NCBI RefSeq assembly: GCF_900110115.1
Contig: NZ_FOCM01000001.1
Location: 682,001-746,000 of the forward strand
Origin: Palleronia pelagia
GTDB taxonomy: Bacteria > Pseudomonadota > Alphaproteobacteria > Rhodobacterales > Rhodobacteraceae
Direction of reading: 5' to 3'
DNA: 64,000 bases
In this document: positions 8,192 to 46,856 of the stretch, piece by piece
Layout of the letters: the number at the start of each line of letters is the position of its first letter
How positions within the stretch are numbered: position 1 is the first letter of the stretch
Notes under the pieces: model-generated
What the model was told of the DNA's origin: nothing
The model's database searches: none
What the model saw: the letters and a program-made list of their open reading frames with translations, nothing else
Position numbers and translations under genes: made by a program

Positions 8192-9085
8192 ATGCCCCAG
8201 TCGATGACGGCCTATGCCTCGGGCACCGGCGCGCACGGACCGTTTTCCTGGACGTGGGAACTGCGCAGCGTGAATGCCCGCGGGCTGGACCTGCGGCCGC
8301 GCACCCCCGACTGGATCGACGGGCTGGATCCCGCGCTGCGGGGCGCGCTGCAACAGGCGCTGGCGCGTGGATCGGTCAGCCTGTCGCTGCGCCTGACGCG
8401 CGAGGCCGCCGGGGGCGACGGACCGGACACGGCCGCCCTGGACGCGGCGCTGGCGCAGATCGGCGCGGTCGAGGCGCGCGCGGCGCAGCAGGGCATGTCG
8501 CTGGCCCCGGCCCGCGCCGCCGATGTCATGGCGCTGGCGCAGTCGAAAGGCCCCGTCCAGTCCACGCCCGAGGAAATCGCGGCGCTGCGCGAGGCGCTGG
8601 TGGCGGATTTCACCGGCAACTTGCTGCCGCCCTTTCTTGCCATGCGCGCGTCCGAAGGGGCGGCCATCTCGGATGTCCTGGCCGCGCAACTGGACGAGAT
8701 CGCCGGCCTGGTCGAGACCGCCGCCGCCCAGGCCACGGACCGCGCGGGCGCCGCGCGCGAGGCACTGAACGCCGCGCTGGCGCGGGTGATGGACGGCGCG
8801 CCGGACGCCGACCCTGACCGCGTCGCGCAAGAGCTCGCCCTGCTGGCCGTGAAAGGGGACGTGACCGAGGAAATCGACCGCCTGCGCGCCCATGTCTCGG
8901 CGGCGCGCGAGATGCTGGCCAAGGACGCGCCGGTGGGCCGGAAACTCGATTTCCTGTCGCAGGAGTTCAACCGCGAGGCCAACACCCTGTGCTCCAAGTC
9001 GCAGGACACTGCGCTGACCGCCACGGGACTTGCGCTCAAGACCGTCATCGATCAGATGCGCGAACAAGTCCAAAACCTGGAGTGA
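8192..9085 (+). CDS. YicC/YloC-family endoribonuclease
   Basis: The 297-residue protein starts [11 protein letters not shown] and has [16 protein letters not shown] near the N-terminus. The conserved C-terminal block is [24 protein letters not shown], the signature of the YicC family. E. coli YicC is an endoribonuclease that acts on small RNAs such as RyhB. The start is fixed by the conserved N-terminal motif. It is directly followed by gmk (8 nt gap), the usual arrangement in many proteobacteria. Confidence 0.93.
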
Positions 9086-41550: not shown

Positions 41551-43089
41551 CTAGCGCCCGCGGAACAGGCCGCCGAGGATGCCACGGACAATGCGGCGCC
41601 CGGTGGTTCCGCCCAGCTCCTTGATGACCGCCTTGGTCATCGCCTCGCCCAGGCTGTCGGGACTGCTTGACCGGCGCGAGGTGGATCGCTTCACCTGCTG
41701 CCCGGTATAGCGTCGGGCCGCGCGGTATTCGCGCTCCGCCTCGGCGGCGGCCTCTTCCTCGGCTTCGGCTTCCGCCGCCTCGGCGGCGGCCTTGTCGGCG
41801 CGCGCGCTCAGGATCTCGAAGGCGCTTTCGCGGTCGCGCACGGCTTCGTATTTCCCGGCGATGGGCGAGGTGTCCATGACCTCGCGCCGCACGGCCTGCG
41901 AGATCGGGCCCAGCTGCGACGACGGCGGCCGGATCAGCGTGCGCTCGACCACGCCCGGCACGCCCTTGGCCGCCAGAAGCGACGTGACCGCCTCGCCCAC
42001 GCCGACCTCGCGGATCGCGTCCTCGGTGTCGAAGCGCGGGTTCGAGCGGTAGGTCTGCGCGGCGCGGGCAAGCGCCTTCTGGTCCCGCGCGGTGAAGGCT
42101 CGCAGCGCGTGCTGGATGCGGTTGCCCAGCTGGCCCAGGATATCCTCGGGCACGTCGTCGGGATCCTGGGTGATGAAATAGACGCCGACGCCCTTGGAGC
42201 GGATCAGCCGCGCGACCTGTTCGACCTTGTCGACCAAGGCCTTGGGCGCGTCCTCGAACAGCAGGTGCGCCTCGTCGAAGAAGAAGACCAGCTTGGGCTT
42301 GTCCGGATCGCCGACCTCGGGCAGCTCCTCGAACAGTTCGGACAGGAGCCACAGCAGGAAGGTCGCGTAGAGCTTGGGCGAGGACATGAGCGTGCCCGCG
42401 TCCAGGATGTTTATCCGTCCGCGCCCGTCGGGATCGGTGCGCATGATGTCCGAAAGCTCCAGCGCGGGTTCCCCGAAGAGCTGCGCGCCGCCCTGGTTCT
42501 CGAGTACCAGCAGCCGGCGCTGGATCGCGCCGATGGACGCCCGGCTGACATTGCCATAGCGCAGCGACAGCGCGTCGCCGTTCTCGCCCACCCAGACCAG
42601 GAGCGCCTGAAGGTCCTTCAGGTCCAGAAGCGGCAAGCCCTGTTCGTCGGCCAGGCGGAAGGCGATGTTGATGATCCCCTCCTGCGCCTCGGTCGCGTCC
42701 AGCAGCCGGCTGACCAGCAGCGGCCCCATCTCGGCCAGGGTGGTGCGCACGGGATGGCCGTTCTGACCGAACAGATCCCAGAAGGTCACCGGGAAGGCGT
42801 CATAGGCATAATCGGTGAACCCGATGGTCGCCGCGCGCTTGGTGAACGCCTCGTGCAGCTTGAAATCCGCGCGCCCGGCGGAGGCCAGGCCCGACAGGTC
42901 GCCCTTCACGTCGGCCAGGAACACCGGGACTCCGCGCGCCGAAAAGCTCTCGGCCAGGATCTGCAGGGTGACCGTCTTGCCGGTGCCCGTCGCGCCCGCG
43001 ATCAGGCCGTGGCGGTTGGCGTATTTCAGCAGAAGGGGTTGGGGCGTGCCGTATCCCTCGCCGCCGCCCCCGACAAAGATATCGCCCAT
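41551..43089 (-). CDS. HerA-like helicase/ATPase (DUF853)
   Basis: The 512-residue P-loop protein has Walker [11 protein letters not shown] (about residues 32-41), [14 protein letters not shown], Walker [15 protein letters not shown] and the C-terminal [30 protein letters not shown]. This is the YjgR/DUF853 branch of HerA/FtsK-type ATPases. A glutamate/alanine-rich coiled region (about 430-465) and an arginine-rich tail follow. The cellular role is not established; DNA translocation is inferred from family. ATG 43089 with upstream GGGGG is preferred to GTG 43095. Confidence 0.9.
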
Positions 43090-43139
43090 GATCACGCCCC
43101 CGTGTTCGTCGTATTTGCGTTAGCAATACATGCTTAACC

Positions 43140-43243
43140 CGATCGTGCCAGTCTGACGGCACCGATGACTGGCCCGCCACGGGTCACCGCATCGGTTTCT
43201 CCCTGTTGGACTGGCCGCGCCGCACTCGGCGCGGCCCTTTTCT
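43140..43243 (+). ncRNA. candidate small RNA A (terminator-ended, with exposed CU-rich segment)
   Basis: No plus-strand gene precedes the strong terminator at 43213-43243. Before it lie two hairpins: GTGCC/GGCAC (43145-43161) and ACCGATG/CATCGGT (43161-43196, with inner CCCG/CGGG). A single-stranded TTTCTCCCTGTTGGAC follows. This layout, stems, then a pyrimidine-rich seed, then a terminator, is that of a base-pairing small RNA. The seed can pair with AGGGAG-type ribosome sites. The 5' end near 43140 is a guess, since the promoter is weak. Confidence 0.5.
43213..43243 (+). terminator. rho-independent terminator of candidate RNA A
   Basis: GGCCGCGCCG and CGGCGCGGCC form a perfect 10-bp stem with a CACT loop, followed by CTTTTCTTG. 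There is no T tract in the minus direction, so it acts on plus-strand transcripts. Confidence 0.85.
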
Positions 43244-43307
43244 TGTTGAGGCTGCGGATCGCAGGAAAATTGCCCAAAATCCGGTCATGGCTGCGCGAAA
43301 ATGTCAG

Positions 43308-43336
43308 TTGACGGACTATGCAATTGCTTCTAGCGT
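43308..43336 (+). promoter_or_regulatory. probable promoter of candidate small RNA B
   Basis: TTGACG (43308-43313) and TAGCGT (43331-43336) are separated by 17 bp, with A-rich tracts upstream (AAAATT, CAAAAT). Transcription would begin near 43343. Confidence 0.5.
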
Positions 43337-43342
43337 CCTCGG

Positions 43343-43412
43343 CAATAACAGGCTGGCCAGTCCAGCAGGGAGATAACACCAGCGTCAAAGGCCCCGTTTC
43401 CGGGGCCTTTTT
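43343..43412 (+). ncRNA. candidate small RNA B, complementary to RNA A
   Basis: The RNA of about 70 nt would start after the promoter at 43308-43336 and end at the terminator at 43387-43412. Its segment 43355-43373 (GGCCAGTCCAGCAGGGAGA) is complementary to RNA A at 43198-43216 over 19 nt with a single G-U pair. It contains an AGGGAG ribosome-site mimic but no following start codon, which suits a decoy or sponge RNA. No known family is recognised. Confidence 0.5.
43387..43412 (+). terminator. rho-independent terminator of candidate RNA B
   Basis: AAAGGCCCCG and CGGGGCCTTT form a perfect 10-bp stem with a TTTC loop and two more T after the stem. It stands 93 bp before the ialB start, with no gene upstream on this strand. 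Confidence 0.85.
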
Positions 43413-43504
43413 CGTGTCCGGCCCCTTGGAAAACGGGCCTGACACCCCGGGCCGGATTTGCTATGGCCTGCGCCAGCACACCAGACACGAAAGATGGAAG
43501 TCCC

Positions 43505-44140
43505 ATGCCGAAACTGATGTATTCCCTGTCGCTTGCGGCCCTGCTGGCCCTGCCCTTCGGCGCCCACGCCCAGGACGACGCGGCCGCCACCGACGGCGCC
43601 GAGACCGAAAGCGCCCCCCAGGTGGTCGAACCCTCGGGCACCGACGGCCTGTCGATGGGCGCCCCGGTCGAGGACGAGAACGCCCCCGGCCGATCCTACA
43701 CCGCCGGAGAGTTCGGCGACTGGCAGCAGCGTTGCATCCGCACCGAGGATGGCAGCGATCCGTGCCAGCTCTACCAGCTGCTGCGCGATAGTGACGGCAA
43801 CGCGGTGGCCGAAATGAGCGTCTTCCCCCTGCCCCCGGGCCGCGAGGCGCAGGCCGGTGCCACGATCATCACGCCGCTGGAAACCCTGCTGACCCGTGCG
43901 CTGACACTGCAGATCGACAGCGGCCAGGCCAAGCGCTACCCGTTCGAGTTCTGCGCCGCTGCCGGCTGCTTTTCCCGCATCGGTCTGACCGGCGCCGAGG
44001 TCGAGTCGTTCAAGCGCGGCGCGCAGGGCATCCTGACCATCGCGCCCGCCGCGGCCCCCGACCAGACCATCGAATTGACGGTGTCCCTGTCGGGCTTCAC
44101 CGCGGGCTATGAAGCGGTGGCAGAAGCCAACACGAACTGA
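43505..44140 (+). CDS. invasion-associated locus B (IalB) family protein
   Basis: The 211-residue protein has a signal peptide (MPKLMYSLSLAALLALPFGAHAQ), an acidic low-complexity stretch (about 24-62) and the IalB domain: FGDWQQRCIRTEDGSDPCQLYQLL, ATIITPLETLLTRALTLQIDSG and FEFCAAAGCFSRIGLTGAEVESFKRG. The two Cys pairs fit periplasmic disulfides. IalB proteins are widespread in alphaproteobacteria; the Bartonella name reflects host invasion, but the general role is unknown. Confidence 0.9.
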   Translation: MPKLMYSLSLAALLALPFGAHAQDDAAATDGAETESAPQVVEPSGTDGLSMGAPVEDENAPGRSYTAGEFGDWQQRCIRTEDGSDPCQLYQLLRDSDGNAVAEMSVFPLPPGREAQAGATIITPLETLLTRALTLQIDSGQAKRYPFEFCAAAGCFSRIGLTGAEVESFKRGAQGILTIAPAAAPDQTIELTVSLSGFTAGYEAVAEANTN

Positions 44141-44151
44141 TCCCGCTGATC

Positions 44152-44265
44152 GGGCCGCCCTACACGGGGGCGGCCCGGCGCCGAATTTACCGGCGGCGCG
44201 ATCACCTGGATCGCGCCGGACCAACCTCCTGAGACCGATTTTCGACGCCGCGAACCCGCGGCGTC
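44152..44265. other. cluster of three hairpins between convergent genes
   Basis: Three perfect stems follow each other: GGGCCGCCC/GGGCGGCCC (44152-44176), CGGCGCGATC/GATCGCGCCG (44194-44218) and GACGCCGCG/CGCGGCGTC (44244-44265). The last overlaps the stop codon of the ketoacyl synthase gene. None has a good T tract. They probably serve as bidirectional 3' end structures. Confidence 0.45.
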
Positions 44266-45472
44266 AGGCCCGCTTGAGCGCCAGGACCGCGTTCAGCCCA
44301 CCGAAGGCAAAGGCATTGGACAGCGCCACGTCCACCCGCGCCTCGCGCGCCTCGTTCGGAACCACGTCCAGCGCGCATTCCGGGTCCGGCTCTTCGTAGC
44401 CGATCGTGGGCGCCACCACCCCGTCGCGCAGCGCCATGAGACACGCCAGCAGCTCGACCGCGCCGGTGCCACCGATCAGGTGCCCGTGCATCGACTTGGT
44501 GGACGATATCATCAGGTCGTTGGCGTGGTGCCCGAACACATCGGCCACCGCGGCGCATTCGGTCTTGTCGTTGGCCGCCGTCCCGGTGCCGTGGGCGTTG
44601 ATGTAGCCCACGCTTTCCAGCGGAATGCCCGCATCCGAGACGGCGCCCGCGATGGCCCGCGCGGCGCCCTGTTTCGACGGCATGACGATATCAGACGCGT
44701 CCGAGGACATGGCGAAGCCCGCGACCTCGGCCAGGATCTCGGCGCCCCGGGCGCGCGCGTGCTCGTATTCCTCGAAGACGAACATGCCGGCGCCTTCGCC
44801 CTGAACCATGCCGTTGCGCGTGGCCGAGAACGGGCGGCAGGCGTCCTTGGACATGACGCGCAGGCCTTCCCACGCCTTCACGCCGCCGAAGCACAGCATC
44901 GCCTCGGTCCCGCCGGTGACCATCACGTCGGTCATGCCCGCCCGGATCATCTGGAAGGCCTGGCCCATCGCGTGATTGCTGGACGCGCAGGCGGTGGCGA
45001 CGGTGAAGCTCGGGCCCTTCAGGTTGTGCTGCATGGACACGTGGCTGGTGGCCGCGTTGTTCATGAGCTTGGGCACCACGAAAGGATGCACCCGGTTCTT
45101 CCCGTCCTCGTAGACGGCGCGGTAGTTTTCATCCTGGGTGTTCAGCCCGCCGCCCGAGGTGCCCATGACCACGCCCGCGCGGGCCGCGAGCGGTCCTTCG
45201 AAGGTCAGGCCCGATTGCGCGATGGCCTCGTCCGCCGCGAGCAGCGCGAACTGCGTGAAACGATCGTAAAGGGCGATCTGCTGGCGGTTGAAATGCGCCG
45301 CTTCGTCGTAGTCGCGCACCTGCGCGCCGATCTGCACGGTCAGGCGGTCCACGTCGCGGATATCCAGCCGGCCAATCCCGCAGCGCCCTTCGCGCATGGC
45401 CTCGAGGGTCTCGGCCACCGACGCACCAAGCGCGTTGATGGTTCCGGCACCCGTTATGACGACCCGCCTCAC
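44264..45472 (-). CDS. beta-ketoacyl-ACP synthase (FabF/KAS II-like)
   Basis: The 402-residue condensing enzyme has the active-site triad of KAS II: Cys162 in TACASSNHA, His294 in NAHGTGT and His331 in KSMHGHLIGGTGAVE. It elongates acyl chains on an acyl carrier protein. The start is a GTG that overlaps the stop of the ACP gene, so the two are coupled. Its place after lpxD and a special ACP, not in the main fab operon, suggests a dedicated lipid A or secondary-lipid role instead of bulk fatty-acid synthesis. Confidence 0.9.
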   Translation of the reverse strand: MRRVVITGAGTINALGASVAETLEAMREGRCGIGRLDIRDVDRLTVQIGAQVRDYDEAAHFNRQQIALYDRFTQFALLAADEAIAQSGLTFEGPLAARAGVVMGTSGGGLNTQDENYRAVYEDGKNRVHPFVVPKLMNNAATSHVSMQHNLKGPSFTVATACASSNHAMGQAFQMIRAGMTDVMVTGGTEAMLCFGGVKAWEGLRVMSKDACRPFSATRNGMVQGEGAGMFVFEEYEHARARGAEILAEVAGFAMSSDASDIVMPSKQGAARAIAGAVSDAGIPLESVGYINAHGTGTAANDKTECAAVADVFGHHANDLMISSTKSMHGHLIGGTGAVELLACLMALRDGVVAPTIGYEEPDPECALDVVPNEAREARVDVALSNAFAFGGLNAVLALKRA

Positions 45473-45735
45473 CCCTTTTGCGCCGCCACGAGACCTTCGA
45501 CCGCGCCGACGATCGCGGCCACAGACGAGATGTCGAAATCGCCCGCCTGGGGGTCGTTGGCGTTGAAGGGCACGGAGATGTCGAAGGCCTCCTCGATGGC
45601 GAAGATCGACTCCACCAGGCCCAGGCTGTCGATACCCAGGTCTTCCAGCGTCTGGTCCATGGCGATGTCCCCGGGTTCGAGCACGGCCTGCTCGGCCAGG
45701 ATCTCGATCACCTTGGTTTTCACGTCGTCGGCCAT
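45469..45735 (-). CDS. acyl carrier protein, AcpXL-like
   Basis: The 88-residue protein has the phosphopantetheine site DLGIDSLGLVE (Ser37) followed by SIFAIEEAFDISVPF. After this the loop NANDPQAGDFDISSVAAI is longer than in AcpP. The length and the FAIE-F-I-IP pattern resemble AcpXL, the carrier for very-long-chain lipid A acyl groups in Rhizobiales. It lies 29 bp after lpxD and overlaps the ketoacyl synthase gene. AcpXL identity is a suggestion, not proven. Confidence 0.8.
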   Translation of the reverse strand: MADDVKTKVIEILAEQAVLEPGDIAMDQTLEDLGIDSLGLVESIFAIEEAFDISVPFNANDPQAGDFDISSVAAIVGAVEGLVAAQKG

Positions 45736-45764
45736 GCCATCGCCCCTTTGGTTACGGGGCTGAT

Positions 45765-46856
45765 TTAGTCACTGTCGGGGGGATTTGAAACCGGTTTCTG
45801 ACCGGGCTTCAGCCGGTCCAGCAGGCGCGGCAGGCGGCGCAGCGCCTTGTACATCTCCACGTGGGCGTCCATCTTTACCGCCGGCGTTCCGGCCATGACA
45901 CGGCCCGCGGGCACGTTCGACAGCACGCCCGTGCCGCCGGTGATGATGCAGTCGTCGCCGACCTTCAGGTTGTCACCGACGCCCGACTGCCCGCCGAAGA
46001 CGCAGCGATCCCCGATCACGGTGGATCCGGCGATGCCGGTCTGCGCCGCACAGAGGCAGTCGCGCCCCATGACCACGTTGTGGGCGATATGCACGAGGTT
46101 ATCCAGCTTGCAGCCGTCCCCCAGCCGCGTGTCCCGGATGGTGCCACGGTCGATGGTTGTGTTGGCCCCCAGTTCCACGTCGTCGCCGATGGTCACGCCG
46201 CCGAGCGAGTGGATGCGCGTCCAGCTTTGCCCCTTGATCTCGCCCTGATCGCCGAGCGACTGGCGCGCACGTTCGACGCCCGACTGCTCGGGGGTCACGA
46301 AAGACAGACCGTCCGCCCCGACCACCGCACCCGGCTGGGCGATGAAACGGTCGCCGATGCTGACGCCGTGCTGGATGCGGACACCGGGATGAAGGATCGC
46401 GTCGGCGCCGAGCCGGCTGTCCACCCCGATGCTGACGTGGGATGCGATCCGCGCGCGCGCGCCGATCCGCGCGCCGCGCCCGATGACCACGAAGGGCCCG
46501 ATGGCGGGGTCGCTGCCGATCTCGGCCTCGGGATCGATGATCGCGGTGGGATGGATGCCCGGCGCGATCTCGGGGCCAGGATCCACCAGCGCGCTCAGGT
46601 GTGCCATGGCGACGCGCGGGCGCTGAACGTAGAGCGCGCCGTCAAGCCCCAGTGCCCGCCAGTCGGCCCCTTCCCACAGGATCGCCGCCCGGGCGCGGCC
46701 CTTGGACAGACCTTCGGCGTATTTGGGCGCCATGGCCAGCGCCAGGTCTTCCGGGCCCGCGTCGGCGGGTTCGGCCGCGCCGGTGATCGGGACATCGCCA
46801 TCGCCTTCGAGACGCGCGTCGAGCCCGCTCGCGATGGCGGCCAATGTCAGCTGCAT
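45765..46856 (-). CDS. lpxD: UDP-3-O-(3-hydroxyacyl)glucosamine N-acyltransferase LpxD
   Basis: The 363-residue enzyme adds the second 3-hydroxyacyl chain to UDP-3-O-acyl-glucosamine in lipid A synthesis. It has the LpxD N-terminal uridine-binding domain (residues 1-100) and a left-handed beta-helix of hexapeptide repeats (about 100-310). The catalytic His region is LDNLVHIAHNVVMG, and GANTTIDRGTI is also present. The C-terminal helix (about 325-350) binds the ACP. It lies 28 bp after the L,D-transpeptidase gene and outside the usual lpxD-fabZ-lpxA context. Confidence 0.93.
   Translation of the reverse strand: MQLTLAAIASGLDARLEGDGDVPITGAAEPADAGPEDLALAMAPKYAEGLSKGRARAAILWEGADWRALGLDGALYVQRPRVAMAHLSALVDPGPEIAPGIHPTAIIDPEAEIGSDPAIGPFVVIGRGARIGARARIASHVSIGVDSRLGADAILHPGVRIQHGVSIGDRFIAQPGAVVGADGLSFVTPEQSGVERARQSLGDQGEIKGQSWTRIHSLGGVTIGDDVELGANTTIDRGTIRDTRLGDGCKLDNLVHIAHNVVMGRDCLCAAQTGIAGSTVIGDRCVFGGQSGVGDNLKVGDDCIITGGTGVLSNVPAGRVMAGTPAVKMDAHVEMYKALRRLPRLLDRLKPGQKPVSNPPDSD

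Follow-up and report, generated by a model that had tools for sequence, protein, structure and literature searches.

SorX and SorY, two stress sRNAs of the photosynthetic alphaproteobacterium Rhodobacter sphaeroides, have been studied by experiment; SorX targets potA and protects against oxidative stress. Its 3' domain, CUCCCUG..GGA..CUGGCC with a GC-rich terminator, is similar to that of the RNA A described below. In the published accounts, which are drawn on here in excerpt, SorX is released by cleavage at the 3' end of the RSP_0847 mRNA (PMC6238624, PMC9438474). Sponges of sRNAs are a known kind of regulator: the enterobacterial sponge SroC pairs with the regulatory sRNA GcvB and speeds its decay (PMC9438474), and in R. 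sphaeroides StsR, which binds another sRNA, UpsM, promotes the cleavage of a single sRNA derived from a 5' UTR and has effects on mRNAs as well (PMC8307010). For SorX and SorY themselves, we found no sponge in excerpts of the openly licensed literature, including PMC8625941, PMC9438474, PMC6238624, PMC6686037, PMC5107571, PMC8307010 and PMC3413700. The RNA B described here differs from both SroC and StsR: SroC is processed from an operon mRNA, whereas B seems to be equipped with a promoter and a terminator of its own and is kept throughout a bacterial family; and unlike StsR, B is matched to a whole multi-copy sRNA family, one member of which is encoded in tandem with it. This tandem, family-matching arrangement is new.

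The gap between the HerA-like and IalB genes

The window (the whole 64,000-nt stretch of DNA analysed here) contains a gap at 43096-43504, with a HerA-like gene on the minus strand on one side, ialB on the plus strand on the other and two predicted plus-strand RNA genes inside. The features are as follows; counts over 93 loci refer to the set of B loci defined in the next section.

41551-43095, minus strand: HerA-like ATPase gene (PF05872, 741.9 bits), upstream of B and on the opposite strand in 77/93 B loci
43167-43244, plus strand: RNA A, a SorX/SorY-like small RNA according to Rfam matches and model R2; a longer form from ~43138 is possible
43198-43216, plus strand: core of A, UCUCCCUGUUGGACUGGCC, complement of B, from a genome-wide exact count and column conservation over 74 loci
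43213-43244, plus strand: strong Rho-independent terminator of A (hairpin 43213-43236 and T-run), from the terminator scanner and the predicted fold
43308-43336, plus strand: putative promoter of B, TTGACG-N17-TAGCGT, from conservation (equal architecture in 73/93 loci)
43343-43414, plus strand: RNA B, ~70 nt, proposed sponge of the SorX family, its start placed from the -10 box; model R1
43352-43366, plus strand: 5' hairpin of B, GCUGG-CCAGU-CCAGC, with 98.5% of the helix cells paired across the 93 loci
43355-43373, plus strand: anti-SorX core of B, GGCCAGUCCAGCAGGGAGA, with GG[CT]C.GTCC..C[AG]GGGA[AG] in 92/93 loci
43387-43414, plus strand: Rho-independent terminator of B, from the predicted fold, 10/10 pairs being changed on both sides over 93 loci
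43439-43467, plus strand: putative separate promoter of ialB, CTGACA-N17-TATGGC, with YTGACA-N16..18-TA kept in 66/93 loci
43505-44140, plus strand: IalB-family protein gene (PF06776, 120.1 bits; start taken as 43505), 3' of B in 91/93 loci
~8198-8668, plus strand: YicC-like N-terminal domain (PF03755, 86.4 bits), ~35 kb from the sRNA locus

The initial annotation had described a gap without plus-strand genes that carries two plus-strand terminators. Both points stand: no convincing plus-strand gene lies there, small mechanical ORFs being present, and the terminator of A is called by the scanner while that of B emerges from its predicted fold and from covariation over the 93 loci (the scanner listed neither that terminator nor any promoter). 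The same annotation pointed to YicC as an RNase acting on small RNAs; a YicC-like gene is indeed encoded in the window, but no link to the sRNA locus was found and a role there is not borne out.

When compared with known Rhodobacter small RNAs, as initially suggested, RNA A proves to be SorX/SorY-like: it scores 35.4 bits against SorX (RF02784, at 43167-43242; gathering score 46.6) and 24.0 bits against SorY (RF02651; gathering score 111), both below gathering. Model R2, built on the 3' domain of A, scores 61.4 bits at 43196-43249 of the window. RNA A has the core CUCCCUG..GGA..CUGGCC and then a terminator, as SorX does; unlike SorX, it does not sit where it could be released from the 3' UTR of a co-directional gene, being downstream of no plus-strand gene in the window, with the HerA-like gene on the opposite strand as its nearest upstream neighbour. 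The R. sphaeroides sequences are CCUCCCUGUUGGAUCUGGCC for SorX and CCUCCCUGUUGGACUUGGGCC for SorY, found at positions that fit the published sites (PMC6238624), and SorY has CCUCCCUGUUGGACU in common with SorX-type cores. SorX, SorY and A have a 3' domain in common and probably make up one superfamily; by the Rfam criterion, however, A is not a SorX. We also reject A as the SorY orthologue: in the R. sphaeroides genome SorY lies at 1,632,645 and A at 1,426,669.

In the window's own genome the A model finds three A-type sRNA genes and one terminator-only match. Against the SorX family, the third A-type sRNA (locus L114, G000:C14:18546-18596, minus strand) scores 47.0 bits, above gathering, and the copy on C5 (L113, G000:C5:137833-137884, plus strand) 46.0 bits. 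The L113 copy is of the SorX type with a GGCCGGGC stem. Its neighbours, named by eye, are a LysR-type regulator frame ~115 nt upstream and a purL-like frame on the downstream side; the OmpR gene described for R. sphaeroides is not next to it.

No promoter for A was identified at the window locus, where the promoter scanner found no site. In long forms of A an internal stem is predicted to conceal the core, and in the window the 5' GCCAGUC of A is predicted to lock the molecule on itself; compensating changes for this lock were not seen by eye in a few loci. An element ATAC..TTAA..TGTGCCAGTCT (window 43123-43151) precedes the start of the A model by ~61 nt (50-73) and is present in 55/74 loci with A as against 3/19 without A. 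It includes TTAACC, which we take to resemble a CtrA half-site, and, read on the minus strand, it would make a plausible HerA promoter (CTGGCA-N17/18-TATnnT). When GTCCAACAGGGAGG was used to look for mRNA sites, with up to 2 mismatches allowed, genomes G000, G012 and G088 returned 33, 28 and 26 matches, and the backwards control 17, 24 and 18; several of the matches are B and the sRNA genes themselves and the rest were not placed on genes, so we propose no mRNA target.

Conservation and nature of RNA B

Model R1, built from 10 B sequences, scores 78.4 bits at 43352-43420 of the window; in the 394 genomes of the family it has a match in 357 at E<=0.01 and in ~299 at E<=1e-6 (hand count). In six genomes searched deeply there is one strong B match per genome (E 7e-18 to 1.7e-10) and all further matches are at 1.7e-5 or weaker, so that family matches weaker than ~1e-5 (up to 0.01) may be chance. 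The A model (3' domain) matches 382/394 family genomes at E<=0.01. Of 289 genomes sampled across the class, six match B at 1e-5, four belonging to the same family and two coming from elsewhere (G450, G634). Searching the named species genomes for the tandem A-B pattern returned 14 stretches, 13 of them titled Rhodobacter, Rhodobacteraceae or genera taken as that family's, and the remaining one only 'alpha proteobacterium'. A near-identical A-B locus (100% identity, rounded) is found in genome G013.

The 93 B loci analysed here are among the best-scoring B matches, together with seven loci from the window's genus and R. sphaeroides; the set is non-random, 9 of the 93 being from the window's genus and the 10 training sequences being included. 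A lies upstream of B on the same strand in 74/93 loci, at a distance of 49-184 nt (median 78); two A-search rows were dropped as off-orientation from the adjacency, pairing and core-conservation counts. In the other 19 loci no A was found within 400 nt of B at E<=1e-4, one of these (L045) having a weak A-like match.

Several lines of conservation bear on the nature of B: (i), the promoter architecture recurs in 73 of the 93 loci and in 0/744 control windows further upstream (those being largely coding), and it is on this conservation that the promoter first proposed for B now rests; (ii), covariation of the hairpin and terminator of B is matched in 0/500 shuffles, the 5' hairpin being changed on both sides in 2/5 pairs and the terminator ending in TTTT in 88/93 loci; (iii), YTGACA-N16..18-TA occurs at most 140 nt past B in 66/93 loci, versus 0/279 downstream and 1/372 upstream control windows. 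B also carries an unpaired AGGGAG and an A-rich spacer. On the plus strand, no Rfam 15 family matches B at its gathering score, the best being Phe_leader with 15.9 bits against 55. The covarying terminator, the conserved promoter and the element before ialB together suggest that B is more than a leader: it looks like a separate ~70-nt RNA gene.

Alternatively, B could chiefly be the 5' leader of ialB and itself the target, with SorX-family sRNAs and A binding it in trans and altering termination or RNase E processing, and hence ialB expression. We regard this as unlikely, although the tight link between B and ialB, which follows B in all but two of the 93 loci, is unexplained and keeps a leader model alive. 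Against it stand the covarying terminator of B itself and the promoter-like element that separates B from ialB; in addition, no antiterminator structure was noticed, in an inspection that was not systematic.

A published RNA of R. sphaeroides lends this leader model some further support. In that genome (G088), the A-B pair is flanked by an ialB-like gene and by a gene that resembles catalase by eye, and katE carries the tag RSP_2779 (PMC3413700). Judged by this tag and by position, the A-B gap probably holds the UdsE/RSs2778 RNA. According to the excerpted source (PMC8625941), RSs2778, renamed UdsE, derives from a 5' UTR, starts at a TSS and stems from a co-transcript of sRNA and mRNA, RNase E and PNPase taking part; it was probed on northern blots, and the source lists its 3' end as unknown. 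Name and position make B the expected UdsE and A a less likely one, although a 3' end so listed fits neither the clear terminator of A nor that of B. In the excerpts of PMC8625941 we found no function, partner or sponge role for UdsE. In P. denitrificans, the 'Intergenic 134' RNA (PMC5107571, in excerpt) may be A or B.

On the far side of ialB, a ketoacyl synthase (Pfam) lies at window 44264-46856 on the minus strand, accompanied by small frames that look ACP-like and LpxD-like by eye. R. sphaeroides likewise has a similar ketoacyl synthase frame next to ialB, indicating that synteny reaches past ialB.

Predicted pairing of RNA B with SorX/SorY-type RNAs

In the window, TCTCCCTGTTGGACTGGCC of A (43198-43216) and GGCCAGTCCAGCAGGGAGA of B (43355-43373) match as complements at 19 positions, 18 of the pairs being Watson-Crick and one G-U, exactly as first annotated. 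The pattern CTCCCTGNNGGACTGGCC has four exact sites in the 3.85-Mb genome, namely A, the A-like genes on two other contigs (C5 and C14) and, antisense, B; the other 8 of the 12 listed matches have 2 mismatches, and the backwards control gives 11 matches with 2 mismatches or fewer. When A (43166-43244) is cofolded with B (43340-43415), the predicted gain is -25.2 kcal/mol, versus a mean of -7.8 (sd 3.1, minimum -19.0) for 200 shuffled B sequences; with the long form of A the gain is -21.7 kcal/mol. When the window's B is paired with the three A-type copies of its genome, the predicted energies are -50.5 with A and -50.3 and -48.0 with the other two.

Across the family, duplex energies calculated from 26- and 28-nt pieces average -37.3 kcal/mol over the 74 adjacent A:B pairs and -16.7 with shuffled B, while two weak model matches that are probably non-members (L203, L200) give -32.4 and -33.6 with B, so that energies near -38 are not far above this baseline. 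In the 51 pairs that align without gaps, 17 of the 18 positions are each paired in 86% of loci or more, but the tenth is mismatched in 36/51. The other 23 of the 74, with indels or atypical cores, were set aside from the position-by-position analysis; most of them have a one-base deletion at or near that tenth position, near the duplex centre. The complementary segments are thus conserved together in relatives, a point on which the initial annotation had staked its proposal, and the complementarity of B to a conserved sRNA region is extended and beyond chance, as expected of a sponge. One-to-one co-evolution of A and B, however, is rejected: B taken from another genome pairs with A as well as the native B does (-37.1 vs -37.3 kcal/mol), and the 51 ungapped pairs contain only three compensatory cells. 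With pair-specific co-variation nearly absent, joint conservation could partly reflect separate constraints on the two RNAs. We also discarded the idea that the variable centre of B tracks A, since the two letters there change along with the 5' hairpin arm of B itself.

B was further paired with A-type copies that do not lie beside it, using 16 such copies from 11 genomes (a seventeenth, L201, was excluded for want of a recognisable core; the weak matches L200 and L203 and terminator-only matches of the A model were not part of the set). With the B of their own genome these 16 trans copies average -41.2 kcal/mol, and their longest unbroken helix has a median length of 13.5 bp (at least 14 bp in 8/16, at least 18 bp in 5/16), versus 9 bp in the 74 adjacent pairs (at least 14 bp in 7/74, at least 18 bp in 5/74). 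SorX and SorY of R. sphaeroides reach -39.0 and -39.3 kcal/mol with B, their longest unbroken helices being 12 and 14 bp. G204 and G009, which lack an adjacent A yet have a trans partner, show 20 and 12 unbroken bp. Such pairing favours B as a partner that the SorX/SorY/A family shares, neither private to A nor a perfect match to every copy.

Our preferred reading, to which the sequence comparisons lend moderate probability, is that B is an independent RNA gene and a family-wide sponge (target mimic) for the paralogous SorX/SorY/A-type sRNAs. As the sequence of B is that of a pairing partner for the whole sRNA family, B would probably act as a sponge that restrains its members. The common 3' domain of these sRNAs starts with CUCCCUG..GGA and ends in the terminator; we infer that first contact would be made between the unpaired AGGGAG of B, which resembles a ribosome-binding site, and the CUCCCU end of the sRNA, and that the duplex would then extend into the hairpin of B. 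This duplex could conceal the target-binding region of the sRNA or open both RNAs to ribonucleases. By inactivating the sRNAs, B would set a threshold below which those of the SorX family cannot act, and A would be a tandem-encoded member of the family and not the sole partner of B. Less in keeping with a family-wide, trans-acting sponge are the near absence of co-adaptation between neighbours, the broken duplexes of many pairs, the position of B beside ialB, needless for a purely trans-acting RNA, and the lack of a 14-bp unbroken helix in half of the trans copies. If the family-wide sponge is real, it would represent a missing control layer for SorX and SorY, kept over many genera of a large environmental family; UdsE/RSs2778, detected but unexplained, would gain a definite, testable role, and one could ask how a single sponge serves several paralogous sRNAs.

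B might instead be an ordinary regulatory sRNA with mRNA targets of its own, SorX-type pairing being secondary or mutual. Other RNAs could be bound through its conserved hairpin loop and its unpaired AGGGAG, and the absence of A/B co-adaptation is in keeping with this. Simple mRNA targeting does not, however, predict a near-invariant B core that is complementary over its full length to the core of an sRNA family, which makes an ordinary sRNA quite unlikely.

It is also conceivable, at odds long enough for us to call it speculative, that the locus belongs to a three-layer circuit fixed throughout the Rhodobacteraceae, in which B sponges the trans SorX/SorY-type sRNAs and the tandem A acts as a decoy of the sponge. 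The break usual near the duplex centre (mismatch or indel) may let A occupy B without the duplex being cut; A would then act as a buffer for B, and the threshold of the stress sRNAs would be set by it. An exception would be the A of the window itself, whose duplex with B has no break.

The initial annotation had seen in B a sponge dedicated to its neighbour A. The tandem RNA genes and their conserved complementarity are upheld, but the exclusivity is not, since swapped partners pair equally well and 19 of the 93 B loci have no A beside them. The prevalence of the tandem (74 loci) would suit a dedicated sponge, as would the window's own pair, slightly the strongest of the three copies and with its 19-nt core unbroken; yet unbroken helices of at least 14 bp are found in 7 of the 74 adjacent pairs as opposed to 8 of the 16 trans copies, and we consider a sponge that serves only A very improbable. 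Finally, that the complementarity belongs to the DNA, as an inverted repeat from mobile-element ends or a recombination site, has next to no chance: the two segments are indeed inverted and ~140 bp apart, but we reject this on the stable synteny, the conserved promoters, the covarying terminators and the single strong B match in each of the six genomes searched deeply, unlike a mobile element.

As a side observation, locus L008, from a genome of the same genus, contains a DUF3800-VII RNA motif (RF02967) on the minus strand (L008:902-983), with 41.4 bits, above gathering.
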